In this document: positions 1 to 24,397 of the stretch, piece by piece
How positions within the stretch are numbered: position 1 is the stretch's first letter
Layout: the number at the start of each line of letters is the position of its first letter
Assembly: GCA_038843015.1 (NCBI GenBank)
Contig: JAWBSH010000007.1
Span: 32,808-77,976 of the forward strand
Length of the DNA stretch: 45,169 nt
Source: Zestosphaera sp.
Lineage (GTDB): Archaea > Thermoproteota > Thermoprotei_A > Sulfolobales > NBVN01
Direction of reading: 5' to 3'
Position numbers and translations under genes: made by a program
Notes under the pieces: generated by a model
The model's database searches: none
Seen by the model: only the letters and a program-made list of their open reading frames with translations
Told to the model about the DNA's origin: nothing

Positions 1-408
1 ATATGTATTTCTTGGGGATTCCCAATACCGATAACCGAGAAAACCATGAGTTTCTATAGCAAGTACAAGAATAAGTACGGGACTGAACCAATATTCACTA
101 CTTGGTACGCCTACGACTCAGTCCACATGTGGGCTGAGGCAGTAAGGAAGGCGGGAAGCTTTGACGTAGATGCAGTAATCAACGCTCTAGAAACTAACGT
201 GTTTGTAGGAGCTGCAGGAGTCTACGAGTTTACTAGAAGTCATACGTCGCTTCTGGCGCCTAACAGGATATACCCCGTCTACTTCCAGTGGCAGGGAGGA
301 AAGAGAGTAGTTGTGTGGCCTTTCAGAGTAGTAGAGCCAGGAACAAAACTACTATTACCTGAGTTAGTAAACGGTACAAGAGTTTGGAGAACTATACCGT
401 GGCCATAG
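1..408 (+). CDS. Branched-chain amino-acid-type ABC transporter substrate-binding protein, C-terminal part
   Basis: The reading frame is open from base 1, so the gene enters from the left edge and only about 135 C-terminal residues are present; the ATG at 46 is internal. The tail (a long helix with YAYDSVHMWAEAVRKAG, then LETNVFVGAAGVYEF and IYPVYFQWQGGKRVVVWP) matches the last lobe of LivJ/periplasmic-binding-protein type 1 receptors. It would sit outside the cell and deliver ligand to the permeases encoded directly downstream, the first of which begins 10 bases after the stop. The ligand cannot be read from this fragment; the family covers branched-chain amino acids, amides, urea and aromatic acids. 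Confidence 0.85.
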   Translation: MCISWGFPIPITEKTMSFYSKYKNKYGTEPIFTTWYAYDSVHMWAEAVRKAGSFDVDAVINALETNVFVGAAGVYEFTRSHTSLLAPNRIYPVYFQWQGGKRVVVWPFRVVEPGTKLLLPELVNGTRVWRTIPWP

Positions 409-418
409 GCTGGTTAAG

Positions 419-1279
419 ATGGATGTTGATATATACAAGTACATACTTCTTTTTAGTATATTTCACTCTTCAACTTACCTAATGTTTTCTATAGGTTTTT
501 CGATGTTGTTTGGTGTGGCTAAGATACCTAATCTCGCTTATGGCTCCCTATATATTTTTTCTTCGTACATTATGTACGCCCTCATTAGATACTTAGCTCT
601 AGAGCCGGTAGTGGCTGCTTTAATAGCTGTGCTGGCTGCGGGGTCGATGGGGTTATTGATAGGAGAGACCGTAGTTAAGCCTGCTCTGAAAATGCCTGTA
701 ACCATATTTATAACTACCCTGGCTGTAGCATACATCTTCGAGGAGTTCTTCCGCATTGAGATGGGCTTGAGACCCATAACACTGCCCTTATATCCGGGAG
801 TAACCTACGTTCTAGGAGTCCCTGTAAGTAACCACTGGTTCTTAGTTCTCGCGGCAAGCCTACTCATGTTTTCTCTACTGACGGTCTTCTTGAAATACAC
901 GGTGATAGGGAGGTCTATTAGAGCCGTTGCTGAGAGCTGGGACGAGTCTAGACGTTTAGGCATAAACCCGCTGAAAGTCTTGAGAGTGACTTTCTTTGTG
1001 TCGGGGATTTACGCCGGAGCCACGGGAGTCTTACTAACACCGCTTAAAGCTCTAACACCTACCGCAGGTTGGGGGCCTCTCTTCACCGCCTTCGCTATAG
1101 TTGCTTTGGGAGGCGTGGGAAGCGTGTCAGGCACTTTAATAGCTTCCTTCATTTATGGGTTTCTTGAGCAAACAATGACTTACGTTTTAGGGAGCGGAAT
1201 AGCCAGCATATCACCCCTCATACTCATAATCCTAGTGTTAGTGTTTAGGCCTCAAGGTATTATGGGGAGGGCAGAATAA
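419..1279 (+). CDS. livH: LivH-type ABC transporter permease
   Basis: A 286-residue, very hydrophobic protein with about eight predicted membrane helices. The N-terminal FSIGFSMLFGVAKIPNLAYGSLY and the late segment FAIVALGGVGSVSGTLIAS are characteristic of the LivH branch of branched-chain amino-acid permeases, and the C-terminus VFRPQGIMGR is typical. The length is normal for the family. The ATG at 419 lies 10 bases after the substrate-binding gene, and the stop precedes the LivM ATG by a single base, so the genes form one operon. It should pair with LivM to form the transmembrane pore. Confidence 0.92.
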   Translation: MDVDIYKYILLFSIFHSSTYLMFSIGFSMLFGVAKIPNLAYGSLYIFSSYIMYALIRYLALEPVVAALIAVLAAGSMGLLIGETVVKPALKMPVTIFITTLAVAYIFEEFFRIEMGLRPITLPLYPGVTYVLGVPVSNHWFLVLAASLLMFSLLTVFLKYTVIGRSIRAVAESWDESRRLGINPLKVLRVTFFVSGIYAGATGVLLTPLKALTPTAGWGPLFTAFAIVALGGVGSVSGTLIASFIYGFLEQTMTYVLGSGIASISPLILIILVLVFRPQGIMGRAE

Positions 1280-1280
1280 G

Positions 1281-2294
1281 ATGGTCTTCGTCAAACGCAG
1301 TGCTAGAGACTTAATCATTAGTAAGACCCCCTTCCTCGCAGTACTTGCGGCTCTAGCTCTACTACCCCTCCTAGGTGTGGGAGGTTACTGGCTCGACGTG
1401 CTAACTAGAGTAAACTTATTCTTGCTAGTAACGCTAGCGATCGACCTGTATTCGGGGACGACCTACTACCTAAACCTAGGAATTTCATTTACTTTCGGGT
1501 TCGCCGGCTACGCGCTAGCACTACTAAACGTGTACTACAGCATACCAACCGAATACTCCCTACTCTTAGCCATACCTATCTCAGTCTTCTTTAGCTTAGT
1601 GATTCTATTACCTAGCCTCAAAATCAGGGGAGTCTACTTCGCTATACTATCTCTCCTCGTACCAATAGTTTACATAGGGATAGTCACTGCCCAGCCTTTT
1701 TCTCTCTACTTGGGTGGTGAGGGTGGCTTAAGATTCAAGCAGTTATTCCTAGACTTCGCCAGAAGTCTGCCATCTGATGTCAGACTTGTTTTCCTCCAGT
1801 ACTCCTACTATTACATCTCATTAGCGGCTGCAGTGATCGGATACTTAGTAGCTTACAAGATAGGCTTCTCTGAATTCGGCTTCATGTTAAGAGCTATAGG
1901 GCAAGACGAGGAACTAGCTGAGGGCACTGGGATAAACACTCTTAAAGTAAAGATAATCGGATACTTAATATCTAGCTCATACGTGAGCATTGCTGGAGCG
2001 CTCTACGCGTCTATGAGGCCCCCAGTAACAGTCGACCTCGTAGTGCCAGCCAACACACTAATACCTCCCCTCACTTCAGCCATAGTGGGTGGGCTGGGAA
2101 CCGTGGTAGGTCCTACTATAGCTAATTACCTGCTTCTACTCACTTACGAGCTAATGTGGGGATTCATAGGTAGGTGGAGAGTGATAGTCTACATGCTCCT
2201 CCTCATAACCATAATAGTGATCAGGCCTCAAGGACTCATCTTCAAGATCTACCTAGACTTAAAGAAGCGTTTAAGAGGTGTTCTCCGTGAGTGA
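1281..2294 (+). CDS. livM: LivM-type ABC transporter permease
   Basis: A 337-residue membrane protein with about nine to ten hydrophobic segments. The motifs FGFAGYALALL, the cytoplasmic loop LRAIGQDEELAEGTGINTLKVKIIGYLIS (the EAA-like coupling loop) and the ending ITIIVIRPQGLIF identify the LivM branch. It begins one base after the LivH stop and overlaps the LivG start by a few bases, so it is translationally coupled to both. It forms the second half of the importer channel. Length and ends look complete. Confidence 0.92.
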   Translation: MVFVKRSARDLIISKTPFLAVLAALALLPLLGVGGYWLDVLTRVNLFLLVTLAIDLYSGTTYYLNLGISFTFGFAGYALALLNVYYSIPTEYSLLLAIPISVFFSLVILLPSLKIRGVYFAILSLLVPIVYIGIVTAQPFSLYLGGEGGLRFKQLFLDFARSLPSDVRLVFLQYSYYYISLAAAVIGYLVAYKIGFSEFGFMLRAIGQDEELAEGTGINTLKVKIIGYLISSSYVSIAGALYASMRPPVTVDLVVPANTLIPPLTSAIVGGLGTVVGPTIANYLLLLTYELMWGFIGRWRVIVYMLLLITIIVIRPQGLIFKIYLDLKKRLRGVLRE

Positions 2295-3003
2295 GATCCT
2301 CAAATGTGAGGAAATAACGAAGAAGTTCGGGGGGCTCACAGCACTCAATAAAGTTAGCTTCAACGTAGATAGGGGAGAAATATTCGGCATTATAGGACCG
2401 AACGGCTCAGGAAAGACCACCCTACTCAACGTCATCACAGGACTCCTAAAACCTGAGGAGGGGAGAATCTTACTAGACAGTAAGGACATAACTAATCTGA
2501 AGCCTCATGAGAGAGTAAAACTAGGTATTGCCAGGATGTTTCAAGGAATGAGGGTCTTCCCCTACCTCCCAGTATACCTTAACGTAGAGCTCGTAGCTAG
2601 AGCTGTTTACGGCGACGTTAGACTAGCTAGAGCAAAAACATCCTGGGCTCTCACGATGAGCGGACTACTGCCTGAGGCAGGAGAATTACCTACGAAGCTA
2701 ACACCTTATAAGCTGAGAATGCTTGAGTTCGCCAGGATCTTAGTGTCTAACCCTAAAGTAGCTTTGCTTGACGAGCCGTTCGCGGGACTCACTTCCGGCG
2801 AAGCTGAGACAATGATAGACCTAGTGAAGAAATTCAACTCTCTAGGGATCACTTTCGTAGTAGTTGAACATAAACTGAGATACTTGATGAAGATAGCTAA
2901 TAGGGTAATGGTGCTAAACCAAGGAGTAAAGATAGCTGAAGGGAAGCCAGAAGATGTGGTCAGAAACCCTCAAGTAATCGAGGTATACTTGGGGGTGAGC
3001 TGA
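2287..3003 (+). CDS. livG: LivG-type ABC transporter ATP-binding protein
   Basis: ABC ATPase of 238 residues from the GTG at 2287. That start is preferred over the GTG at 2278 because GAGGTG at 2275-2280 is a good ribosome-binding site 6 bases upstream; it overlaps the LivM stop by 8 bases. Walker A is GPNGSGKTT, Walker B is VALLDEPFAGL, and the H-loop is in VVVEHKLRYL. The signature region reads LTPYKLRMLEFARIL rather than the LSGGQ consensus, a common weak signature in LivG proteins (usually LPYGxQR). It powers transport together with the neighbouring LivF. Confidence 0.9.
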   Translation: MSEILKCEEITKKFGGLTALNKVSFNVDRGEIFGIIGPNGSGKTTLLNVITGLLKPEEGRILLDSKDITNLKPHERVKLGIARMFQGMRVFPYLPVYLNVELVARAVYGDVRLARAKTSWALTMSGLLPEAGELPTKLTPYKLRMLEFARILVSNPKVALLDEPFAGLTSGEAETMIDLVKKFNSLGITFVVVEHKLRYLMKIANRVMVLNQGVKIAEGKPEDVVRNPQVIEVYLGVS

Positions 3004-3007
3004 AGAA

Positions 3008-3715
3008 ATGAATGAAGTTCTTGAAGTCAGGAATCTTAGGTCAGGTTACGGGCAGGTCCTGATCCTGAATGACGTGAGTTTTCTCGTAAGAAACAACGAG
3101 GTTGTCGGAATCATAGGCCCTAACGGAGCGGGCAAAACAACGCTACTTAAGACTATTCTAGGATACTTAAAACCCTGGAGTGGTGAAATAGTCTACTTAA
3201 GTAAGAGAATAGACGGACTAAATACCGAAAAAATAGTTTCACTAGGCATAGGGTACGTGCCTGAGAGGGGCGGGATACTTAGAACACTCACGGTGAAAGA
3301 GAATATAGAGTTAGTCACCGGGATATTTAAGGAGAGTTCTGAGAAGCTGAGAGAACTCCGCAAGCTCTTCCCCATAATAACTGAGAGAGCTTCTCAAGTA
3401 GCTGGTACTCTTAGTGGTGGTGAGCAGAAGATCCTCTCTATAGTTCTAGGACTACTAACAGCTAAAAAACTCCTCATAATGGACGAGCCGTCTGCCGGAT
3501 TAGCACCAGTAGTTAGGAAGAAGCTCTCAGACCTCCTCAAGACAGTTGCTACCGAGTTAGAACTCTCGCTACTCATAACAGAGCAAGACCCTAGCCTAGT
3601 AGCTGACCTAGCAGACACAGTGTATGTCATGGAGAGAGGACATATCGTGAGAAGCGGAAAACCAGAGGAACTAATAAGAGTAGAAGTCTTGAGAGAATAC
3701 TATCTAGGATTCTAA
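3008..3715 (+). CDS. livF: LivF-type ABC transporter ATP-binding protein
   Basis: ABC ATPase of 235 residues. Walker A GPNGAGKTT, Q-loop region IGYVPERGGILRTLTVKENI, signature LSGGEQKILSI, and Walker B LLIMDEPSAGLAP are all present, with ITEQDPSLVADLADTVYVMERG in the D/H-loop region. In the H-loop position an E-Q pair (TEQD) replaces the usual His, as in many LivF proteins. It starts 4 bases after LivG, behind GGTGAG, and closes the operon. It is the second ATPase of the importer, forming a heterodimer with LivG. Confidence 0.92.
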   Translation: MNEVLEVRNLRSGYGQVLILNDVSFLVRNNEVVGIIGPNGAGKTTLLKTILGYLKPWSGEIVYLSKRIDGLNTEKIVSLGIGYVPERGGILRTLTVKENIELVTGIFKESSEKLRELRKLFPIITERASQVAGTLSGGEQKILSIVLGLLTAKKLLIMDEPSAGLAPVVRKKLSDLLKTVATELELSLLITEQDPSLVADLADTVYVMERGHIVRSGKPEELIRVEVLREYYLGF

Positions 3716-3931: not shown

Positions 3932-4921
3932 ATGAGGGAGAGACACGTCAAAATAGTTTCAACAGGTATTTATGTCCCACCAATAATAATGACTCCCGAG
4001 GAGTTTGAGAAGAAGACTGGTATCAAGGTAGACCCAGTATTTATGGAGAGGACCGGACTTAAAGTGAAGAGGGTTGCTCCTCCCGAGGAAACCCCTGCTA
4101 CCATGGCTGCTAAAGCAGCTGAGATGGCATTAGAGAGAGCTAAAATGACTATAGAAGATATCGATTTAATAATTGTGGGTACTGACACTCCCGAAGCGAT
4201 ATCACCGCCCACCGCACCCAAGGTCCAAGCCCTCCTCAACGGTAGTAAAAGAGAAATACCTGCCTTCGATATCAACGCTTCTTGCGCGAACCCTGCTTAC
4301 ATGCTTGAATTAGGTACCTCCATGATTAAAGGCAATAAAAAGTACAGGAACGTTCTACTCATAGGGACATACGCGATGACGAGATTCTTGAGGTGGAAGT
4401 TTATGTGGGAGTGGATATTCTCTGACGGGGCTGGCGCAGTGATAATATCTGAGTCTGAAGAACCTGGTTACCTGGCAAGTAAGTTAAGAGCTGACGGAAC
4501 CTTCTGGGACTACTGGGGCATCTTCATGGGTGCTTGGAAGCCTATATCTGAGCAAGTATCTGACGATACACTCCCGTACCTAGACTTAAGGAAAGCTTAC
4601 CCCCCAGTCAACGACCAGTTCTGGCCCGTGTTAATTAAGGATGTCATGGAGCAAGCTAAGATATCCTTAGATGACATAACACAAATAATTTATACTCAGG
4701 TAAGACTCAAGACTATATTAGACGTCACTAAGTCTCTGGGTCTGCCAGAGAACCGAACACACTGGATAATGGATAAATACGGCTATACAGGCTCAGCATG
4801 CATATATATGGCGTTACATGACGCTCTAGAACAAGGCAAGGTAGAGAGGGGTAAGGTAGTCATTCTAGTTGCTTCAGGAGTTGGCTACCAGCAAGGTGCT
4901 ATAGCTTTTAGATGGGTCTGA
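3932..4921 (+). CDS. FabH/KAS III-like acyl condensing enzyme with altered active site
   Basis: A 329-residue thiolase-fold protein related to beta-ketoacyl synthase III and HMG-CoA synthase. The nucleophilic Cys is C118 in DINASCANPAY, and the fold landmarks WIFSDGAGAVI, DKYGYTGSAC and the glycine-rich ending VASGVGYQQGAIAFRW are in the expected places. The other two catalytic residues of KAS III are replaced: the His of the PHQAN motif aligns with T255 (IYTQVRLK), and the Asn of the DKYGNTS motif aligns with Y285. The ATG is preceded by GGGTGA. A classical decarboxylative condensation is therefore unlikely; acyl transfer or another Claisen-type reaction is possible. The neighbours (CoA-transferase, hydrolase) support CoA-thioester chemistry. 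Confidence 0.75.
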   Translation: MRERHVKIVSTGIYVPPIIMTPEEFEKKTGIKVDPVFMERTGLKVKRVAPPEETPATMAAKAAEMALERAKMTIEDIDLIIVGTDTPEAISPPTAPKVQALLNGSKREIPAFDINASCANPAYMLELGTSMIKGNKKYRNVLLIGTYAMTRFLRWKFMWEWIFSDGAGAVIISESEEPGYLASKLRADGTFWDYWGIFMGAWKPISEQVSDDTLPYLDLRKAYPPVNDQFWPVLIKDVMEQAKISLDDITQIIYTQVRLKTILDVTKSLGLPENRTHWIMDKYGYTGSACIYMALHDALEQGKVERGKVVILVASGVGYQQGAIAFRWV

Positions 4922-4947: not shown

Positions 4948-4996
4948 ACTACCGTTATCTAGTCTCTAAACAACTTTTTTGAGGAGCGTGCATGGT

Positions 4997-6289
4997 ATGC
5001 TGTTAAATGACCTCTTAAGCAACATTATTAAGAGTGGTAAGAAGCCTGCCCCCCTACTGATACCCAAGTCTTTCGGCCCCTTAAGCGGGGTGAGGATAAT
5101 CTCGTCAGGAATTCTAATCGCGGAGCCTTTCGCGGCTTACCTAGCAGCTCTCTGGGGGGCTGAAGTAATACATGTTGAGAGACCTGGGGGAGACACCTAC
5201 AGGCACTCACCACCCTTCATAGAACACGAAGGAAGAAAAGTCAATACTTGGTGGGCGCAAGAAAGACGTAACATGTTATCAATAGTCTTGAACTTAAAGT
5301 CAGAAAGAGGTAAGGAAGTGTTTCTTAAGTTGTTGAGGCAAGCTGACATATGGATGGAGAGTTCTATGCCAGGCACTTACGAGAAGTTAGGCATCACTGA
5401 TGAGGTAGCGCATAAAATAAATCCGGAGTTAACTATAGTGCATGTCTCAGGGTTCGGTCATTGGGGTGACGAGAAATACTTGGGCCTCCCAGCATACGAC
5501 GCTATAGCGGCTGCTTTCAGCGGCTGGATGAGCTTAAACGGCTTCCCAGAAACACCTCCGTATAAGCCATTCCCCTACACAGGAGATTACCTGACAGCGC
5601 TTCACGCGCTATCGGCTGCTCTAGCCGGGTACATACACGCTAAAAGAACTGGCAAAGGAGTCTCTATAGACGTAGCTCAGTTTGAAGCAATCGCAAACAC
5701 TTTCGGTGGTCTCTGGATACAGACAATCGAGTTAGGTGATACGCCGACTAGAAGAGGAAACAAAGACATCTACTTCCAACCATACGACATATTCAAAACA
5801 TCGAACGGCGAGTACGTCTTCATAGGCGCTCTAGGCTATGACGTCTTTAAGAGACTCTGCAACGCGCTCGGCGTAAACTTCGACGAGTGGAAAGACGTTC
5901 ACTACGCGCCCGGAATGCATACGGAGAAGGGGAAAGCCTTCGACTCTATACTTAGAGAATGGGTATCGAGGAAAACTTCCGACGAAGTAATTGAGATTCT
6001 TAAGAGACACAACGTGCCCTGCTTTAAGGTCTACACACTCAAAGACGCCTTAAACGACCCACACTACAACTCCAGGAAGGACTTCATTGAGTGGTCTGAT
6101 GAGAGCCTCAAAAAGAGTATTAGTGGATGGGGCGTAATACCCAAATTCAAGATGGAAGAAGAACCAAGAGTTTGGAGAGGCTCACCAAGGCTAGGTCAAG
6201 ATGCTAGACTAATCCTGAGTAGGCTACTTGACTACACCGCAGATGAGGTAGAAGAACTGATTAAAAGTAATGACGTGTGTTGTGAGTGA
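4997..6289 (+). CDS. Family III (CaiB/BaiF) CoA-transferase
   Basis: About 430 residues, the normal size for formyl-CoA/carnitine-CoA transferases. The N-terminal region GPLSGVRIISSGILIAEPFAAYLAALWGAEVIHVERPGGD carries the CoA-binding Rossmann motif. The catalytic Asp that forms the aspartyl-CoA anhydride is in GLPAYDAIAAAFSG, and the C-terminal part shows RRGNKDIYFQPYDIFKTSNGEYVFIG and the region KRHNVPCFKVYTLKDALNDPHYNSR typical of the family. The ATG at 4997 is chosen because GAGGAG lies at 4981-4986, 10 bases before it; TTG 4979 would include that site. It moves CoA between carboxylic acids; the substrate is unknown. The next gene follows within 2 bases. Confidence 0.88.
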   Translation: MLLNDLLSNIIKSGKKPAPLLIPKSFGPLSGVRIISSGILIAEPFAAYLAALWGAEVIHVERPGGDTYRHSPPFIEHEGRKVNTWWAQERRNMLSIVLNLKSERGKEVFLKLLRQADIWMESSMPGTYEKLGITDEVAHKINPELTIVHVSGFGHWGDEKYLGLPAYDAIAAAFSGWMSLNGFPETPPYKPFPYTGDYLTALHALSAALAGYIHAKRTGKGVSIDVAQFEAIANTFGGLWIQTIELGDTPTRRGNKDIYFQPYDIFKTSNGEYVFIGALGYDVFKRLCNALGVNFDEWKDVHYAPGMHTEKGKAFDSILREWVSRKTSDEVIEILKRHNVPCFKVYTLKDALNDPHYNSRKDFIEWSDESLKKSISGWGVIPKFKMEEEPRVWRGSPRLGQDARLILSRLLDYTADEVEELIKSNDVCCE

Positions 6290-6290
6290 A

Positions 6291-7115
6291 ATGCCTTACG
6301 TGAGAGTTAATGATGTTGACATTTATTACGAGGATCACGGGTCTGGAGAGCCTGTCGTATTACTTAACGGTATATTCATGAATACTAAGAGCTGGTATCT
6401 GCAGTTAAAGCCTCTAGTGAGTAGAGGTTATAGAGTTATACTGCATGACATGAGAGGTCAGTGGAGTTCTGGAAAGCCTGACTGCGCTGACTGCTATAGC
6501 TTAGAGATTCACGCTGACGACCTTAAGCAACTCTTGGACAAACTCAACGTTAAGAAAGCACATATCATCGGGACCTCATACGGCGGTGAGGTCGGAATGT
6601 ATTTCACGATTAAGTACCCAGACTACGTGAACGACTTAACACTAATAACCTCAGTTAGTGAAGTACATGAGGAACTAAGGACTACTGCCTTAAGGTGGTT
6701 AGAGGGAGCTCTAAGCAACGACCCTAAGAAGTTTGTTCTCTCCTGGATCAACGACGTCTACTCAGATTCTTTCATAGAGAAGTCAGGTCCTCAATTACTT
6801 GAGAGACTCATAAGCCTATACTCGAGCGGTTTTGACTTCAGGAGCGCTACATACCTCCTCAAAGCATTTCTTAAACTAATTGAAGAGCCGCTGACCCCCA
6901 AACTAAGAAACATAAGTCAACCAACACTAGTTATAGCCGCTGAGAAAGACAGAGTCAAGCCTCCTAAATACTCAGAGATAATAGCTAAGAACATAACTAA
7001 CTCAACCTACACTATAGTTAACGACGCCGGACACGCAGTAGTGATAGAGAAGCCCGCCATCATTAACTACCTACTGATTGGATTCTTATACAGCCACCCA
7101 CTAAGCACTACGTAA
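6291..7115 (+). CDS. Alpha/beta-hydrolase fold esterase/hydrolase
   Basis: A 274-residue alpha/beta hydrolase from the ATG at 6291 (an in-frame ATG at 6270 would overlap the previous gene by 20 bases). The nucleophile elbow is GTSYGG (Ser about residue 96), the acid lies in AAEKDRVKP and the His in NDAGHAVVIEKP; the oxyanion region is LLNGIFMNTKSW. It starts 2 bases after the CoA-transferase stop and is surely co-transcribed with it. Possible roles are a thioesterase, lactonase or amide/ester hydrolase in the same pathway. The motif pattern gives the fold, not the substrate. Confidence 0.85.
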   Translation: MPYVRVNDVDIYYEDHGSGEPVVLLNGIFMNTKSWYLQLKPLVSRGYRVILHDMRGQWSSGKPDCADCYSLEIHADDLKQLLDKLNVKKAHIIGTSYGGEVGMYFTIKYPDYVNDLTLITSVSEVHEELRTTALRWLEGALSNDPKKFVLSWINDVYSDSFIEKSGPQLLERLISLYSSGFDFRSATYLLKAFLKLIEEPLTPKLRNISQPTLVIAAEKDRVKPPKYSEIIAKNITNSTYTIVNDAGHAVVIEKPAIINYLLIGFLYSHPLSTT

Positions 7116-9379: not shown

Positions 9380-12300
9380 TTACTGACGTCTTAAGCGCGT
9401 TAAAGCCTCGATCAATAATATGATGAGATTGATGATCATTAATACTCCGATAAGAGAAGTTACTAAGCTCACGTCACTCGAGGTTTTTAGTTCTACTCTA
9501 TTAATTCGGTCAAGTATGCTACTTTCTAGTCTTGCCATATTCTGGTCTATGTTTGAGGATATCTCGGACGGCATCATCTCTACCTTATACACCATCTGTC
9601 TAAAGTATGTGTCTAGGCTCTGAATCAAGCTACTCGTTAAGTTGGTTAAGAGATTTACACCTTCACTAACGCTGTGTAAGCCTGCTGACGTGTAATTACT
9701 TAAGGTATTCATGCTTAGGAGTAGCTGATTAAGCACAGAAGTTATGTTGCCGTAATAAGATAGTATCTCTCTCTTAAATACTGACTCTCTTACGTATATG
9801 TTGTTGGAGGCGATTATTTCGCCGTCTTCCGTTCTCACGCTCAACACGTGTGTTCCTTCAAAGTATTCAGGTATGGTTATAGTGAGTCTTAACGGGTTAA
9901 CGTCTCTCGTTCTAACGCTAGACAAGAGGTTGTCATCAATATACACAAACAGCGTGGTATTTACGGGGTGACCCGAAATACTTAGCTCGAGCACTCCTCC
10001 CGCCCTCGGCTCTCTAGTCAAAACATCTAATCTCGTGTTAACGTAGAATATCGCCTCACCGTAGTACATGCCCTCACTAACTACTACAACCTTATGAATG
10101 CCTCTCTCAAGGTTCGGCACTCTCAACTTAATAATAGACGTCTCGTTCTTGCCTATAACGTCTCTCAAGACTACGATGTTGTCAATTAACACAGAATATA
10201 TTGTGCCAGGCAAGGGCGGAATCTCAATAGTTATTACGTCGCCCACGTATACGTTAAGCGGGACTACAGAAATCCCTATCGGTTTAACAGCAACCCAAGA
10301 GACAGCCCTATAGAGTATTTCTTTGGCGTCATCACTCCAGTGATCCATGTTAGTCCATAACTCAGGAGCTAAGCCAGCTAACAAAGCCCACCTAGTCCCG
10401 TACTGAGTCACCTTAACCCCAATACCTATCCCTCTTACCCCAGCAGTCTCTGCACCTATGTAAGCTATCACGTCGCCGTCCCACTTACTAAACCACGCGT
10501 AGTCGTAGTCGCCCCCGTACACCAGGTAAACTCTCTCACCCACCTCGTACCCAGCCACTATAGGATGTTTCTGATTTATAACGTAGTAAACAGGTCCATC
10601 ACCATAACTAGCGCCGACACTAGCCGGGTTCCTATAATAGTAGTAAAGAATGTTGATTCCGTACGGGTATTCTTTGATATACCTATACTCAAAGTAGTTA
10701 TTCAGGAACACTACACCTACCCCGAGCTGGTAAGTTAAGTTAAGTACTTTCTCAAAAGTTTGCCGATCAGGCCATAAGTCAGAATATCCTAAGTATTCAC
10801 CGGCCAACACGAGCACGTCGTAAAAGTTGAGTTCCCTGCATAGAGAGTCCCAATTTCTGAAAGCCTGAGCGTACCACCCTCTCGACTGCAACAATAACGT
10901 GATTTGCCCCGAGAAATCGATCATCACGGCAGCTCTAGGTCTCCTATACAAAGACTCCGCAACATAGCTAGTCTCCCCCACACTAACAACAACTGTTTCT
11001 TCAGCTTCGTAATAGCCTTTAGCGTAAATCCTCACCTTGTAGACTCCCTCAGGAAGCCAGACAACGAACGTGCCGCTCTCGTTAGTGTAGCTTCTTACAG
11101 GCGTGTTCATAACGGCAATTTCTGCATTCTTAATTGGAAGACCGGTATCAGCAGCAAATACTTTGCCAGCCACCCACCCATAAGGCACCCGATCTAAAAC
11201 CACGTTGACTTCCGTAAAAGCAGATATGGAGATGAGTCGAGGATAACCGGCACTGACGGTAGACTCATCCACAGAGTCTGCCATACTGTTTGTAGTGTTT
11301 GTAGTTATCCCTAAAACCCAAACTACCGTGTTGAAGAGTAGTCTCCTCATATTTAAAGAATACTGAAGGTCCTGACCACTCTCCATATACCTAGCCCAGT
11401 GATAACTACCGCCCACACTCATGAAGACCCATCGAGCCGCTTCCGAAGACCTCTGCCAAGCAACCAAGCCATAGCCGTAGAGGACACCCCCTTGAACAAG
11501 CTCCCCTAAGTAAGTCAACTCACCGCTACCTGGCTGAAGGAACCCCTGATACGCTGAGAAATCCACACGACTCGATGGCGACACCCCAACGTAAAACCTA
11601 GTGCCCTCATCAAAACTTATCCCGGCAAAGAAGCTACTATTCGGTTCTAAAGCATTCATCATCATGCCCACACTATAGCCTTCAGTCCTGTAGAGAGGTG
11701 CAGGATACCCCCTCGAGTTGACAGCGTCTCTATACTTGTAGAGTAAGTAACCTCCAAAGTTATAGTAAGTACCCCAAGAATCGAGGAATATGAGTGAAGT
11801 GTTCTTACTATCCATACTACTCAAGAAGTCAACTAACCTGCCTGACCCCGGGTCACTGCCTAAGTAATTTATTATTATAGCCTTATAGAGTCTCCCCGCC
11901 TGCAGAGGCTCAAGCAACTCTATAGCGTAGCTCGGGTATCCTTGAGAAACTAGCGCCTGCCTAATGTCATCACCGAATATCTCTCTGTCTTTCGACATCA
12001 CTCCAATCAAGAACGTAGTATCTACCGAAACGAATTGCTCGCCCGGACTCAAATGGATGCTGTATGTTCTCGTGGCATAGTACTCCTTAGAAGCTACTAG
12101 AGTATAGACCCCAGGAGGTATTCTATCAAACGTTACGTAGCCGGTAGAGTTCGTGACTCTGCTGACTCCCAACTCTAGAATACTCACTTCAACTCCTTGT
12201 AGAGGTTCCCCGCTGAGAAGCTCATATACCTGGACATACGCAATCGCCTGAGAACTTATAGGGTAGAGCTGAAAATCAGCTAGTACTAGCTCACCTTCTC

Positions 12301-14203
12301 CCACGACTACTTGTTTAGTCTCGTTAAAGTAACCCTCTACGAGAGTTCTTAACGTGTACCTCCCCGGCTGAATCGATACCTGATAAAATCCTCTAGTGTC
12401 AGTGCGTGCCGACATATTAACTTCTACCACGAATACAGATGCGTTGATTATTGGCTCTCCAGTAGTCTTGTCCGTGACTAGCCCTGCTATCGTCCCATTA
12501 TATATAACAACGTCAACCTCTACCCACTTCTCGTGATAACCGAACCTCTTAAATACTATCGTGTAGTGTCCAGGGTCTAGTGGAAGGACATAATAACCTG
12601 ACATGTTAGTTTGAGTATGTGACACTATAGTTCCTCTGTGGTCGTACGCATATACATCAACATGCGGTACCGGCGTCATGTCGTAGCTATCGTAAACGAA
12701 CCCCCTAACACCACTAATTTTCGAGATTTCTACAGCTTTCTTAATAGCCTGATACGCGTCGACAATCCCCCAACCATATCTAGTGTCTTGACCGGGCGCT
12801 CCTAAATCAAGAGCAGTACTCACGAGAACCTCATAGACCTTTAAAGGAATCTCAGGCACTGGGTACTTATCCCACTTAGTGGCTTGATAAATTAACGCGA
12901 CTAATCCTGCCACGTGAGGAGTTGCCATAGATGTTCCACTCCATGCAGCATAACCCCCTCCAGGTATACTTGAAACTATTCTTACTCCAGGCGCGGCGAA
13001 ATCAGGTTTTAAGTAGACTTGAGGGTAAGTGCCGTTGAAGGGCCAGTCCGGAGGTATGTACGGCCAGTAAATCCTAGCGCCTCCAGAGAAAGAAGCAACA
13101 TCATCGTTTTCATCTGTCGCGCCGATACCGAAAACACCCCATATATTGCCTGGGTTGTCATGCGTGCCGGGCCCTCCATTACCTATCGCTGCCACAGGAA
13201 CTATATTAAGTAATAACAGATGCTTGATAGGAGTCAGAAATTCAGAACCATAGTAATTTCTGGCTCCCCAACTCATGGAAACTACGTGTGGTGCGATGCC
13301 TGTGTAGACCCGCTCGCCAGTACTTGCATCAATGTAGTATGGGTCGGCAGCCCACTCTATAGCAGCAAGCGTTTGAGCGAATGTTCCGCTCCCGTAAGGT
13401 AGTGCTAGTACGTGCATCAGCGTCGCACCCGGCGCAACACCTATCAATATGTTCTTGGTGTCGCCTCCCAACGCAGTCCCGCTAGTATGCGTCCCGTGTC
13501 CGTGTGTGTCTTGAGGCGTCATCAAGTAGGGTCTCCCAGCACTGTCAAAAGCCATCCACCCGCCCGGATAGTACGGGTTGTTAGGATCTAGAGTGAAGAG
13601 TTTTCCGCTGAGGGCTGGGTGACTTATGTCTACTCCCGTATCTATGACGCATATTCTCGTTCCAGACCCATTATAACCCATCTCCCAAACTTCAGGTGCT
13701 CTAATCCTCTCTACACCCCAAGAAACCACCTCACTAGATGCTGTGATATTCCTCTCAACTACGTACATGTCTACAGTGACCTCGAAATTGGGGACTATCT
13801 TCTCGACTAGGGAATTCCTAGCTATAATAGGTAGTGAGTTAGTCTTTATCTTGACTAAAATGGCGTTAGTGATCCAGAAGTTACTGAGTATTTCCCCACC
13901 CAAACTCAGCACTAATTGCTTAACATCGCTCTGAGTCACGTAAGAGTATGATTTAAGAGTTTTCCTAACTTCCTCGACTCCCTTAAAATACTTTATTGTC
14001 TGGAGCTTACCATAGTCAAGATTCTTTAGCATAATAACAACTTCTCTTACCTCATCCCTTCGAATCAAGTCAAGAAGCTCTGGGTCAATCTTATGTAGAA
14101 AGAGCTCTTCTGAGTCTTCAGCGAGGACGTAATTAATCGTGGGTAGTGACGCGAAGAGTAACATAAAAATTAAACATAAAACGAAAAATAACTTAAGCTT
14201 CAT
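9380..14203 (-). CDS. Giant membrane-anchored subtilisin-like serine protease
   Basis: A 1607-residue secreted protein. Residues 1-28 form a signal peptide. Residues 40-150 resemble a subtilisin propeptide. The S8 catalytic domain spans about 160-490 with Asp188 (VIDTGVD), His236 (GHGTHTSG), oxyanion Asn342 (AIGNGGPG) and Ser425 (GTSMATPHVAG). Three carboxypeptidase-regulatory-like beta domains follow (about 497-730), then a Rossmann-like ThuA/amidotransferase-like region, a fourth regulatory-like domain (GWVAGKVFAADTGLPIKNAEI), a second Rossmann-like region, Ig-like segments, a coiled-coil stalk (YYGNITSVLNQLLLSM onward) and a C-terminal membrane helix with LRRQ. The ATG has GAGGAG upstream. 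It resembles the S-layer-attached proteases of Desulfurococcales and follows the propeller protein by 14 bases. Confidence 0.9.
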   Translation of the reverse strand: MKLKLFFVLCLIFMLLFASLPTINYVLAEDSEELFLHKIDPELLDLIRRDEVREVVIMLKNLDYGKLQTIKYFKGVEEVRKTLKSYSYVTQSDVKQLVLSLGGEILSNFWITNAILVKIKTNSLPIIARNSLVEKIVPNFEVTVDMYVVERNITASSEVVSWGVERIRAPEVWEMGYNGSGTRICVIDTGVDISHPALSGKLFTLDPNNPYYPGGWMAFDSAGRPYLMTPQDTHGHGTHTSGTALGGDTKNILIGVAPGATLMHVLALPYGSGTFAQTLAAIEWAADPYYIDASTGERVYTGIAPHVVSMSWGARNYYGSEFLTPIKHLLLLNIVPVAAIGNGGPGTHDNPGNIWGVFGIGATDENDDVASFSGGARIYWPYIPPDWPFNGTYPQVYLKPDFAAPGVRIVSSIPGGGYAAWSGTSMATPHVAGLVALIYQATKWDKYPVPEIPLKVYEVLVSTALDLGAPGQDTRYGWGIVDAYQAIKKAVEISKISGVRGFVYDSYDMTPVPHVDVYAYDHRGTIVSHTQTNMSGYYVLPLDPGHYTIVFKRFGYHEKWVEVDVVIYNGTIAGLVTDKTTGEPIINASVFVVEVNMSARTDTRGFYQVSIQPGRYTLRTLVEGYFNETKQVVVGEGELVLADFQLYPISSQAIAYVQVYELLSGEPLQGVEVSILELGVSRVTNSTGYVTFDRIPPGVYTLVASKEYYATRTYSIHLSPGEQFVSVDTTFLIGVMSKDREIFGDDIRQALVSQGYPSYAIELLEPLQAGRLYKAIIINYLGSDPGSGRLVDFLSSMDSKNTSLIFLDSWGTYYNFGGYLLYKYRDAVNSRGYPAPLYRTEGYSVGMMMNALEPNSSFFAGISFDEGTRFYVGVSPSSRVDFSAYQGFLQPGSGELTYLGELVQGGVLYGYGLVAWQRSSEAARWVFMSVGGSYHWARYMESGQDLQYSLNMRRLLFNTVVWVLGITTNTTNSMADSVDESTVSAGYPRLISISAFTEVNVVLDRVPYGWVAGKVFAADTGLPIKNAEIAVMNTPVRSYTNESGTFVVWLPEGVYKVRIYAKGYYEAEETVVVSVGETSYVAESLYRRPRAAVMIDFSGQITLLLQSRGWYAQAFRNWDSLCRELNFYDVLVLAGEYLGYSDLWPDRQTFEKVLNLTYQLGVGVVFLNNYFEYRYIKEYPYGINILYYYYRNPASVGASYGDGPVYYVINQKHPIVAGYEVGERVYLVYGGDYDYAWFSKWDGDVIAYIGAETAGVRGIGIGVKVTQYGTRWALLAGLAPELWTNMDHWSDDAKEILYRAVSWVAVKPIGISVVPLNVYVGDVITIEIPPLPGTIYSVLIDNIVVLRDVIGKNETSIIKLRVPNLERGIHKVVVVSEGMYYGEAIFYVNTRLDVLTREPRAGGVLELSISGHPVNTTLFVYIDDNLLSSVRTRDVNPLRLTITIPEYFEGTHVLSVRTEDGEIIASNNIYVRESVFKREILSYYGNITSVLNQLLLSMNTLSNYTSAGLHSVSEGVNLLTNLTSSLIQSLDTYFRQMVYKVEMMPSEISSNIDQNMARLESSILDRINRVELKTSSDVSLVTSLIGVLMIINLIILLIEALTRLRRQ

Positions 14204-20285: not shown

Positions 20286-21011
20286 ATGGGTTTAAATAGG
20301 ATGTATGTAGCAGTATTTAATATAGTTCAGTATGATTGTCCAGTTGTGTGGTTAGTAGAGCACCTCAAAGACACTAAAATAATAGTTACTGGAGCGAACG
20401 TAGCTGAAATCTCTAGAGGTTATGAGAAGATATACGTGGTTTTACTAGGTGATAACGACTTAATCAATAAAGCTTTAGAAAAGATAGAGAGCTACAGACT
20501 CGTACGAAGCTATGAAGTAATACAGAAGAAGAGAGATTTTGTTAAGATACAGATGAACATAACAAAAACCAAGACTATGGAGACCAGCGTCTTCCTCGAC
20601 GCAACGCCTCTAGCGCCTTGGATAGCTAAAGAAGGATATGAGAGATGGACTTTAGGATTCCACAGCAAGAAGTTACTTAACGAGTTCGTGAGCAGAGTAA
20701 ACGAGTTCGATTATATAGAGAAGTCTAGAGTTGAGGAGATACCTGATGAGCTAGTTGCGGAATTTTCGATGAATTACCTGGCAGCACTAAGCTTGCTGAC
20801 GATGGAGTTAAGCAAACTAACTAATAAGCAATTAAGTCTGTTGAGACTAGCGCTTGAGTCCGGGTATTATGAGTGGCCTAGAAAGACTAACATAGTCGAG
20901 CTTTCTGAAGAGTTAGGCATATCGCGAGCCGCAGTAACTAAGTTGTTGAGGCGTGCTGAAAAGAGAATAATATCTTCTACGCTGAAGTACTTAAGTAAGA
21001 CAGCTGTTTAA
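20286..21011 (+). CDS. Bat-type HTH_10 transcription regulator
   Basis: A 241-residue protein whose C-terminal domain (about 180-235: LTNKQLSLLRLALESGYYEWPRKTNIVELSEELGISRAAVTKLLRRAEKRI) is the bacterioopsin-activator-like HTH_10 domain found in archaea. The N-terminal 150 residues form an alpha/beta sensor-like region with no recognised ligand motif. ATG 20286 or ATG 20301 could be the start; the TATA box at 20260-20267 would give a nearly leaderless transcript. It directly precedes the thiolase/DUF35-SDR operon and is a plausible regulator of it. The N-terminal half may sense a small molecule. Confidence 0.82.
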   Translation: MGLNRMYVAVFNIVQYDCPVVWLVEHLKDTKIIVTGANVAEISRGYEKIYVVLLGDNDLINKALEKIESYRLVRSYEVIQKKRDFVKIQMNITKTKTMETSVFLDATPLAPWIAKEGYERWTLGFHSKKLLNEFVSRVNEFDYIEKSRVEEIPDELVAEFSMNYLAALSLLTMELSKLTNKQLSLLRLALESGYYEWPRKTNIVELSEELGISRAAVTKLLRRAEKRIISSTLKYLSKTAV

Positions 21012-21102
21012 GCGCAAATCGGTCTTAGCTCGCGTGCCGTGCCTTAAACATTTATAATCATTGTTTACCCGCGGTTAGATTACTCACGACAACATATTCT
21101 AG

Positions 21103-22266
21103 ATGGGGTCTGAATTGGAAGTAGGTGTTGTAAGCGCTTATAGTCTGAAGTACGAGTTGAGGACATCTAAAGAAGTCTGGGACATGATTAAAGAAGTCAC
21201 TGAAGGAGTATTAGGGAGAGTTGATAAAGGCATTAATAAAGAAGAGATAGACCTAGTTATAGTATCTAACTTCTCTGACAGGTTCGGCGGACTCTTACAT
21301 ACAGCACCCCTAGTTATCTCACACTTAGGTTTAAACAACACTAAAGGCTTTAGAGTAGAGAATGCTTGCGTGTCTGGGGGGACGGCCCTCTACCTAGCGT
21401 GGAACTTCCTCAGGAGCGGTTTAGCCAGGAACGCGTTGATAGTAGGTTTCGAGAAAATGAGTTACTTGCCATCAAGCACAGAGGTAAACGAGGTCTTGAT
21501 GCTGGCGGGACACCCTGATGAGGTCTTAATAGGCTCGCCTTTCGTGTCTCTCTATGCTCTAATAGCTACTGCATACATGAATAAATACGGAGTTAAGGAG
21601 GAAGACCTAGCGCTAGTAGCTGTGAAAAACCATGAAAACGGTTTGAGAAACCCTCTTGCGGCTATGCAGAAGAAGATTAGTGTCGAAGACGTGATGAAGT
21701 CCCCCTATATTTCGTGGCCGTTAAAGCTTTACGACTCTTCACTAATAACCGACGGCGCTGCAGCCTTAATACTAAGTAGTGAGCCAAGAAAATACACTGA
21801 CACGCCAGTAATGGTGAAATCAGTAGCTCTGCATCATGATCACCCAGGAGTCTTCCAGCGCGAAGACTTGACCGCTTTAAGAGCTGTCAAGAAAGCTGGT
21901 GAGGAAGCTTACAGGAGTGCTGACGTAACACTTAGAGACATAGACGTCATGGAGGTACATGACGCCTTCACCATAGCTGAAGTAATAGTCTACGAGATGC
22001 TCGGTCTTGCTGAGAGAGGTAAAGGTGCAGACCTCGTGAGAAACGGTGTTACGACATTCGACGGCGAGATACCAGTCAATCCTAGCGGGGGACTCAAGTC
22101 TAAAGGACACCCTATAGGAGCTACTGGCGTAGGCATGGTGGCCGAGATCTACTGGCAACTGAGAGGCGAGGCAGGACAAAGGCAGGTACCTGATGCCGAG
22201 ATAGGTCTAGTAGAGAATCACGGGGGTACTGGAGCAACGTCTGTAGTAGCTATTTTCAGCAGGTGA
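21103..22266 (+). CDS. Archaeal thiolase (SCP-x/acetyl-CoA acetyltransferase-like)
   Basis: A 387-residue thiolase. The acylated Cys is C89 (RVENACVSGG), the later motifs are EVHDAFTIAEV, NPSGGLKSKGHPIGATGVG (base His) and NHGGTGATSVV at the end, which replaces the bacterial CxGGGxG as is usual in archaeal and SCP-x thiolases. It can condense or cleave acyl-CoAs. The stop overlaps the GTG just before the next gene, and AGGTGA in its last codons serves as ribosome-binding site for that gene. In archaea such thiolases normally work with a DUF35 protein; here the DUF35 fold is fused to the downstream reductase. Confidence 0.9.
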   Translation: MGSELEVGVVSAYSLKYELRTSKEVWDMIKEVTEGVLGRVDKGINKEEIDLVIVSNFSDRFGGLLHTAPLVISHLGLNNTKGFRVENACVSGGTALYLAWNFLRSGLARNALIVGFEKMSYLPSSTEVNEVLMLAGHPDEVLIGSPFVSLYALIATAYMNKYGVKEEDLALVAVKNHENGLRNPLAAMQKKISVEDVMKSPYISWPLKLYDSSLITDGAAALILSSEPRKYTDTPVMVKSVALHHDHPGVFQREDLTALRAVKKAGEEAYRSADVTLRDIDVMEVHDAFTIAEVIVYEMLGLAERGKGADLVRNGVTTFDGEIPVNPSGGLKSKGHPIGATGVGMVAEIYWQLRGEAGQRQVPDAEIGLVENHGGTGATSVVAIFSR

Positions 22267-22271
22267 TTAAG

Positions 22272-23243
22272 ATGGTCTGGAAGCTAATCACCTACACAGA
22301 ACTGTATACTCCAGCACTACCTTATAAGTCTACCTACGCTATAGGCTTAGTAGAGAATGAGGAGGGAATCAGGAGAGTAGTCCGCATAGACAGGAAGTTC
22401 TTCGGGAAGCTCAAGATAGGCATGGTAGGGGAAGTCATCGAGTCTTGGAGTATCTTCGGCAACATACCTCTGTTCACTCCCTCAGGTATTGAGGTCAATG
22501 AAAAGAAAGTAGCTTTAGTCACTGGAGGTGCTAGAGGCATAGGAGCCGCCATATCGCTAGAACTCGCTAAATCAGGGTACCTGATAGCAGTAGCCGACAT
22601 ATCGCGCGACACTGAAGCAGAAAACACTATTAAGGCTATATCTGATGCCGGGTCTAAAGCACTGTTCGTTGAGATGGATGTTTCAAAGTATGAGTCGGTT
22701 GAAGAAGGGATCAAGAAGATAGTGAGTGAGTTCGGTAGAATTGACGTCTTAGTCAACAACGCTGGAATAACGAAAGACTCATACTTACAGAGAATAAGTC
22801 CTGAGATGTGGGACGCAGTAATAAAAGTGAACTTAACAGGCGCGTACAACTGCTCTAGAGCTGTCACGCCACACATGATTAAGAGTGGTGGAGGCGTCAT
22901 AATTAATGTCTCATCTATAGTAGGGTTAGTAGGTAATATAGGGCAAGCAAACTACGCAGCTTCTAAATCAGGTTTAATAGGACTTACCTACACTCTAGCT
23001 AAGGAGCTAGCTCCATACGGGATAAGAGTAGTCGCGATAGCTCCAGGATTTGTCAAAACGCGAATGGCTCTAGCAGTGCCTACTCCAATACTGAGAGATT
23101 ATTTGAGGAGGATACCTATACCGAGACTCATAGAACCGGAAGAAGTCGCTAAGTTAGTGAGGCACATCGTAGAAAATGAAGCGCTAAACGGTATCGTAAT
23201 ACCGATAGATCTGGGTACTACTATCTCAAGTCCTAAAGCCTAG
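22272..23243 (+). CDS. DUF35 OB-fold fused to FabG-like short-chain dehydrogenase
   Basis: About 323 residues. Residues 1-75 (LITYTELYTPALPYKSTYAI, then LVENEEGIRRVV, then KLKIGMVGEVIE and GNIPLFTP) match the OB-fold half of DUF35 proteins, without the usual N-terminal zinc ribbon. Residues 79-323 form a classical SDR: nucleotide motif VTGGARGIG, NNAG at 162-165, Ser215, Tyr228 and Lys232 (SSIVGLVGNIGQANYAASK), and ending NGIVIPIDLG. ATG 22272 is chosen because AGGTGA lies 5 bases upstream. It is likely a 3-ketoacyl-CoA reductase held on the adjacent thiolase by the OB domain. The fusion is seen; the function is inference. Confidence 0.82.
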   Translation: MVWKLITYTELYTPALPYKSTYAIGLVENEEGIRRVVRIDRKFFGKLKIGMVGEVIESWSIFGNIPLFTPSGIEVNEKKVALVTGGARGIGAAISLELAKSGYLIAVADISRDTEAENTIKAISDAGSKALFVEMDVSKYESVEEGIKKIVSEFGRIDVLVNNAGITKDSYLQRISPEMWDAVIKVNLTGAYNCSRAVTPHMIKSGGGVIINVSSIVGLVGNIGQANYAASKSGLIGLTYTLAKELAPYGIRVVAIAPGFVKTRMALAVPTPILRDYLRRIPIPRLIEPEEVAKLVRHIVENEALNGIVIPIDLGTTISSPKA

Positions 23244-23323: not shown

Positions 23324-24397
23324 TTGAGCGTGTCTATTGTGTCGTTCCTGAAAACTCATAAAATTAGGCTTAGCGAGGGTTTTGAAATCAACTTGAGGTA
23401 CTTAAGCAGAGAGAGCAATAAAGCCGTAGTCTTAATCCACGGTAACCTCTCATCATCATTGATTTGGGAAGACATCATCCAGAAAATACCCGAAGACTTT
23501 GACGTAGTTGCTCCAGACCTGAGAGGTTTCGGAGATAGTGGGAGGAGACCCGTAGACGCTACTAGAGGTCTAAGAGACTTCTCAGACGACATACTAGAGT
23601 TGCTAGTGAGTCTCAAGTATGACTACTACGTGTTAGTAGGACACAGTATGGGGGGAGGTATCGCGTTACAAGCACTCATAGATTCTCGTAATAAAGTCAA
23701 GATAAAGAAAGTAGTACTAGTAGATCCTTTATCGCCGTACGGCTACGGCGGCACTAAAGACGCATACGGCACGCCATGCTACAGCGATTATTCAGGGTCT
23801 GGCGCAGGTCTCGTAGCTAAGTATAATCCAGAATTCGTTAGACTACTTAAAGCTAAATACACTGGAATTGACCACCCATCAGCACCAGCTAACGCCGTCA
23901 GAGCTTACTTTGCTGATGATTACGTGATTGGTGAGACACTAATGAGTAAGCTCTTAGCAATGCTGTTCAGCACTGAAGTTAGTGAAGATAACTATCCTGG
24001 AGACTACGTAGAGAGTCCTAACTGGCCTTATATAGCGCCGGGGAGTAGGGGAGTACTCAACGCGATGAGTCCTAAATACCTTAATCTAAGAGAAGCACTA
24101 AACATTGCTGAGAAGCCGCCGATACTCTGGATTCACGGAAGCAAGGATATCATAATATCTGACATGTCTTTACTTGATGTAGCAGTACTGGGACTCATGG
24201 GATACATACCAGGGTACCCAGGTCAAGAAAAGTTCCCACCGCAACCTATGGTAAGTCAGATAAGAAACTTCCTAGAAGAGTACGTTGTGAGAGGCGGGGC
24301 CTACGAGAAACTGATAATTGAGGGAGCTGGACACACGCCATTCATAGAAAGACCTGAAGAATTCACGAAAAAGCTCACTGATTTTCTCTATGAGTAA
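23324..24397 (+). CDS. Alpha/beta hydrolase with extended lid
   Basis: A 357-residue alpha/beta hydrolase. The oxyanion motif is LIHGNLSSSLIWED, the elbow is VGHSMGGGIAL, the acid lies in IHGSKDIIISD and the His in EGAGHTPFIERP. It is about 80 residues longer than a minimal hydrolase because of an insertion around residues 150-235 (the lid). The TTG at 23324 and the GTG at 23330 are both possible starts; an AT-rich box at 23296-23303 implies a leaderless transcript, and no ribosome-binding site is visible. It has its own promoter about 80 bases after the SDR. A thioesterase role is possible. Confidence 0.83.
   Translation: MSVSIVSFLKTHKIRLSEGFEINLRYLSRESNKAVVLIHGNLSSSLIWEDIIQKIPEDFDVVAPDLRGFGDSGRRPVDATRGLRDFSDDILELLVSLKYDYYVLVGHSMGGGIALQALIDSRNKVKIKKVVLVDPLSPYGYGGTKDAYGTPCYSDYSGSGAGLVAKYNPEFVRLLKAKYTGIDHPSAPANAVRAYFADDYVIGETLMSKLLAMLFSTEVSEDNYPGDYVESPNWPYIAPGSRGVLNAMSPKYLNLREALNIAEKPPILWIHGSKDIIISDMSLLDVAVLGLMGYIPGYPGQEKFPPQPMVSQIRNFLEEYVVRGGAYEKLIIEGAGHTPFIERPEEFTKKLTDFLYE

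Follow-up and report, generated by a model that had tools for sequence, protein, structure and literature searches.

What does an enzyme of the ketoacyl-ACP synthase III (KAS III) fold do when it keeps the nucleophilic cysteine of its family and carries other residues at the positions of the catalytic histidine and asparagine? The question is raised by an intact open reading frame at positions 3932..4921 (+ strand; start ATG at 3932, stop codon 4919-4921; 329 aa) of the window, the 45,169-nucleotide stretch of Zestosphaera sp. DNA analysed here. The thiolase superfamily is a classic example of one fold supporting many reactions, with two or three residues deciding the outcome. A natural test of the need for His and Asn would be offered by a clade that has kept the cysteine, fixed a threonine and a tyrosine at the other two sites, and occurs in archaea and bacteria with mostly the same partner functions. 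Recognizing it would also correct the automatic annotation 'ketoacyl-ACP synthase III', given to a protein whose genome has no detectable ACP, and the gene would mark a catabolic-looking organic-acid pathway.

Family assignment and active-site residues

The encoded protein matches the Pfam domains ACP_syn_III (E=1.4e-15; 57.3 bits, cut-off 24) and ACP_syn_III_C (3.2e-23; 82.1 bits, cut-off 26.6), which places it in KAS III and not among the SCP2 thiolases. Its nearest PDB relative by phmmer is Aquifex FabH (2ebd, E=3e-44), and the top Foldseek matches of its AF2 model (pTM 0.80, mean pLDDT 74) are likewise FabH structures. It shares with FabH (PDB 2ebd, 1hn9), its best sequence and structure match, the fold, the length, the Cys nucleophile and the C-terminal domain, at an overall identity of ~25-32%. 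It differs from FabH in carrying Thr at the His site and Tyr at the Asn site, lies in a different gene neighbourhood and falls below the cut-offs of the curated FabH models (NF006829, 191.8 versus 249; TIGR00747, 188.5 versus 292.1). The genome, a 1.55 Mb MAG that is ~96% complete, gave no match to the ACP model PF00550, which does match 11 of 14 control genomes. We therefore rejected a FabH identity on the missed cut-offs, the absent Cys-His-Asn triad and the lack of a detected ACP in the genome; calling it a 3-oxoacyl-ACP synthase III, as the automatic label does, is very probably a mistake. An HMG-CoA synthase identity was rejected too: the protein reaches 42 bits on the archaeal HMG-CoA synthase model against a cut-off of 353, its residues differ (the His is replaced), and the genome has a separate HMG-CoA synthase of its own, which scores 475, above the cut-off.

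Three codons, all on the + strand, define the putative active site. Cys118 (4283..4285) aligns with the FabH nucleophile; Thr255 (4694..4696; IIYTQVRL, motif TQV) aligns with the His of PHQAN; and Tyr285 (4784..4786; KYGYTGSAC, motif GYTGSAC) aligns with the Asn of xGNT. These assignments agree between five phmmer pairs and two MAFFT sets, which combined the protein with E. coli FabH, plasmid-borne FabHs and archaeal HMG-CoA synthases, including that of the window genome itself. As an internal control, the FabH and HMG-CoA synthase rows retain H and N in the same alignment. The preliminary description, which had placed Cys, Thr and Tyr at these sites, is thus borne out by both methods and by invariance in the family. 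It had also asked whether a different His and Asn might occupy the active site. None of the His residues is conserved among 12 family members, so that even the PqsC-type arrangement, in which the catalytic His is kept, is absent, and the sole invariant Asn is N227, directly after a low-confidence stretch (189-226) of the AF2 model. Its reading of the change as a loss holds in that His and Asn are gone, but this is not a simple loss: Thr and Tyr are fixed at the two sites and could make up an active site of another kind. The open-access literature that we searched, with partial coverage, yielded no case of a KAS III member lacking both His and Asn.

Conservation, distribution and phylogeny

The 12 homologues comprise the window genome, eight MAGs of the order Sulfolobales, a distant Thermoproteota genome (G197), a Njordarchaeota copy and a Chloroflexota plasmid. 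Cys118, Thr255 and Tyr285 are identical in all of them and belong to a set of 65 invariant positions that includes T255-Q256-V257 and G284-Y285-T286-G287-S288-A289-C290. Comparison with the two nearest relatives gave dN/dS pair values of 0.031/0.85 and 0.036/1.17 (ratio ~0.03-0.04), which points to strong purifying selection on the gene. A pseudogene in the window was rejected on the ratio of ~0.03 and on the open reading frame being present in eight close MAGs.

The subfamily occurs in two further genomes of the window's genus and in six of a second genus of the same taxonomic family. Beyond these genera we found it in G197 (42% identical), in the Njordarchaeota MAG (42%) and on the Chloroflexota plasmid (37-38%). 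It is rare, with a match at E<=1e-30 in 3 of 398 sampled Thermoproteota genomes; within the class of G197, that genome holds the only clade member, the second match there (G191) belonging to a group of KAS III proteins that we call 'HMK/GH'. In a maximum-likelihood tree the subfamily forms one side of a branch with support of 99/98, and it is still grouped (100/98) when the columns around C118, T255 and Y285 are removed. With and without these columns it is separate from FabH, from archaeal HMG-CoA synthase and from the 'HMK/GH' group. The protein is probably a member of a distinct, conserved and uncharacterised KAS III subfamily, not a broken enzyme.

The Njordarchaeota homologue (L049:9998-10996) contains two in-frame stops (TAA, TGA), reflecting either decay or an assembly error, and no module genes adjoin it on the stretch read. 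Plasmids of Jeotgalibacillus (L100:11755-12780) and Paenibacillus (L101:9779-10774) encode KAS III-like proteins that likewise show substitutions, Ser-Gln at the His site and GYTG at the Asn site; the genes around them do not resemble fatty-acid operons. A sister relation of these proteins to the subfamily had support of 93/92 in the first tree and disappeared without the motif columns; we do not claim it.

A conserved module of transport and CoA-ester genes

The conserved gene neighbourhood is the most informative evidence on this protein. Upstream, all on the + strand, lie the 3' end of a Liv/Urt-type substrate-binding protein gene that starts before the window (1..408; Peripla_BP_6, 6.5e-9; 90% identical to a longer gene in L031), LivH-type (419..1279; BPD_transp_2, 1e-33) and LivM-type (1281..2294; BPD_transp_2, 1.4e-24) permeases, and LivG-type (2278..3003; ABC_tran, BCA_ABC_TP_C) and LivF-type (3008..3715; ABC_tran, 3.7e-29) ABC ATPases. 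Downstream, on the same strand, follow a CaiB-like family III CoA-transferase (4979..6289; CoA_transf_3, 1.4e-93; 1xk6, E=1.4e-64), whose Asp aligns with that of the CaiB FPYTxDY motif, and an alpha/beta hydrolase with the Ser motif GTSYGG and a C-terminal His in GHA (6270..7115; Abhydrolase_1, 1.8e-34).

The module is split in the window. Some 13 kb from the rest, at 20286-23243 and again on the + strand, are an HTH_10 regulator (20286..21011; HTH_10, 1.3e-19), whose counterparts in the sister genus and in G197 adjoin the module, an SCP2/archaeal-type thiolase with Cys (ENACVSG), HDAF and GHP motifs (21103..22266), and an SDR dehydrogenase (22263..23243; adh_short, 5e-64). Next to them is a second alpha/beta hydrolase (23324..24397, +), which shares 50% identity with a hydrolase of the G197 cluster. 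The partner enzymes keep their motifs: the thiolase Cys, HDAF/HDCF and GHP, the hydrolase Ser and His, and the CaiB-type FPYTxDY Asp. The N-terminal ~75 residues of the SDR appear to form a DUF35-like OB domain; this assignment is moderately supported, by one weak Pfam match (OB_ChsH2_C, 2.1e-4), by alignment and by a profile match, likewise weak, to the DUF35 protein of Chloroflexota, while a Pfam search of four SDR orthologues gave no match to the OB domain. The gene of a 1607-aa subtilase with four carboxypeptidase-regulatory-like repeats (9380-14203, minus strand) lies in the interval that splits the module.

In the second genus, most loci hold a single run of genes for the substrate-binding protein, LivH, LivM, LivG, LivF, the KAS III-like protein, a CaiB-like CoA-transferase, an alpha/beta hydrolase, HTH_10, thiolase and OB-SDR. 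In G197 the order is substrate-binding protein, KAS III, LivM, LivH, LivF and LivG, then two hydrolases, an AMP-ligase, the counterpart of the window's second hydrolase, HTH_10, OB-SDR (65%) and thiolase (66%). The Chloroflexota plasmid CP069395 carries SDR, KAS III, an acetyl-CoA hydrolase/transferase, DUF5640, thiolase and a separate Zn-ribbon DUF35 protein, followed by an alpha/beta hydrolase, the substrate-binding protein, LivG, LivF, LivH and LivM. The two genera (g1 and g8), G197 and the plasmid thus share one module, with its gene order shuffled and its CoA-activating enzyme exchanged; the DUF35-like OB domain is fused to the SDR in archaea and is a separate protein in Chloroflexota. 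The CoA-activating position is occupied by any of three unrelated enzymes, which suggests that conversion to a CoA ester is obligatory for the substrate. The plasmid copy of the entire module (L058:14182-25876) lies on the 180 kb CP069395.1 of a cold-seep Chloroflexota bacterium, which suggests that the module moves horizontally.

Among 32 genomes examined, a close thiolase orthologue (at least 63%) is present in the five genomes with the KAS III-like gene and in one other, G039, where a thiolase (63%) and OB-SDR (52%) pair (L060:11407-13556) stands without KAS III or transporter. G011 has kept the KAS III gene with no CoA-transferase beside it; decayed remnants of one, with several stops, are found elsewhere in that genome (L061:8057-9700, contig C13), a pattern that counts against the catabolic module proposed below. 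Models for enoyl-CoA hydratase and acyl-CoA dehydrogenase match in control genomes and gave no match in the ~96% complete window MAG. Since no beta-oxidation genes were detected, a compound that already bears a beta-hydroxy or beta-keto group is a likelier substrate of the SDR and thiolase than one that has passed through beta-oxidation.

The benzylsuccinate bbs genes encode a family III CoA-transferase, an SDR and the BbsAB thiolase with DUF35, and the module follows the same CoA-transferase, SDR and thiolase/DUF35 logic; benzoylsuccinyl-CoA thiolase is one PDB match of the window thiolase. The bbs system has an acyl-CoA dehydrogenase and a hydratase and, to our knowledge, no KAS III.

Proposed reaction and its alternatives

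In FabH, His and Asn are both required to decarboxylate the second substrate. Activation of the nucleophile is attributed to the helix dipole, and PqsC that lacks its His is acylated at 77 s-1, nearly the rate of the wild type (87 s-1) (PMC4807248). From these residue roles we expect Cys118 to be acylated from a CoA ester and malonyl decarboxylation not to occur. The earlier expectation that no standard decarboxylative Claisen reaction takes place appears well founded, given the FabH requirement (PMC4807248) and the lack of a detected ACP.

We infer the following order of steps. The Liv-type ABC system would import an organic acid, which the CoA-transferase (an AMP-ligase in one lineage) would convert to its CoA ester. 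The KAS III-like enzyme would act on CoA thioesters instead of ACP. Its Cys118, located where the nucleophile helix begins, would accept the acyl group from acyl-CoA, and for this the missing His may be dispensable. The FabH reaction would not run, the His/Asn pair for malonyl decarboxylation and enolate stabilisation being gone, and the acyl group would then be handed to another acceptor, either CoA or a co-substrate. Thr255 and Tyr285 may donate hydrogen bonds through their hydroxyl groups, or Tyr285 may act as an acid/base. The SDR would oxidise a beta-hydroxy to a beta-keto group, the thiolase/DUF35 system would cleave the beta-keto product, and the alpha/beta hydrolases would open an ester, lactone or thioester. 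The neighbourhood could also be read in the synthetic direction, with thiolase and SDR making a beta-hydroxyacyl-CoA. Taken whole, a Cys-Thr-Tyr KAS III subfamily that uses CoA, is acylated on Cys, does not decarboxylate and acts in an organic-acid utilisation module is a tentative proposal, to which we give slightly less than an even chance. Transfer to CoA or a co-substrate would be in keeping with the 'unusual acyl transfer' anticipated by the preliminary description, which seems plausible; but PqsC, the best-studied altered member in the literature consulted, still requires its His, so losing both residues would be a further step. PqsC resembles our protein in being a KAS III enzyme without the Asn whose Cys is acylated by acyl-CoA, as we expect here. 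Unlike our protein, it retains an essential His269, with Val at the Asn site, and forms a heterodimer with PqsB (PMC4807248). As this His serves the second half-reaction of PqsC, a His-free transfer would be unusual.

We favour transfer after acylation; the main rival is C-C chemistry with Tyr285 as acid/base. Thr255 and Tyr285 would then restore the second oxyanion hole, or provide an acid/base centre, for making or breaking a C-C bond by non-decarboxylative Claisen, retro-Claisen or retro-aldol reaction, much as Ltp2 and Sal employ Tyr where thiolases have other residues; we regard this possibility as rather doubtful. Both replacements are invariant hydroxyl hydrogen-bond donors, Ltp2 and Sal are thiolase-like aldolases that pair with DUF35 domains and have recruited a Tyr to the active site as base or acid (PMC12329534), and the module contains thiolase and DUF35-type parts. 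However, Ltp2 and Sal belong to another branch of the superfamily, the SCP2-thiolase relatives, Sal lacks the nucleophilic Cys kept here, and a thiolase carrying the usual motifs is already encoded in the module. A bolder form, in which Cys-Thr-Tyr KAS III would be a new enzyme class performing a new C-C reaction of retro-Claisen or aldol type on CoA esters (Tyr as acid/base, Cys as acyl carrier), the signature of an undescribed organic-acid pathway in hot-spring archaea and Chloroflexota, strikes us as unlikely. Alternatively, the protein might catalyse little or nothing itself and chiefly serve as a structural subunit in a thiolase/DUF35 complex, as PhlA does in PhlABC or HMG-CoA synthase in the archaeal thiolase/HMG-CoA synthase complex. 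Trios of a KAS III-fold protein, a thiolase and DUF35 do form complexes (PMC6392133; PMC12329534), and genes for the same three parts are found here. But PhlA has lost its Cys (Gly115), and G039 has the thiolase/OB-SDR pair without KAS III. Because Cys118 is invariant, a purely structural role is the less likely, and we consider it improbable. Archaeal HMG-CoA synthase differs from our protein in retaining the HQPN and GN motifs, and the module differs from both systems in that its DUF35-like domain is fused to the SDR in archaea. That the protein is a FabH or HMG-CoA synthase which merely seems altered, through misalignment or decay, is a very slight prospect: slippage is possible at ~25-32% identity to FabH, yet the family has no conserved His, the replacements are fixed across three phyla under strong purifying selection, the FabH and HMG-CoA synthase NCBIfam cut-offs are missed, and a real HMG-CoA synthase lies elsewhere in the genome. 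This reading is already contradicted.

The 'HMK/GH' KAS III clade of Thermoproteota (L010, L011, L054, L065-L067) has HMK, with its His near the usual site, and a His in place of the Asn (GH). It resembles the subfamily in its surroundings: three of its genes adjoin an alpha/beta hydrolase (in G053, G043 and G191), and G053 and G043 also have a Liv-type ABC system.
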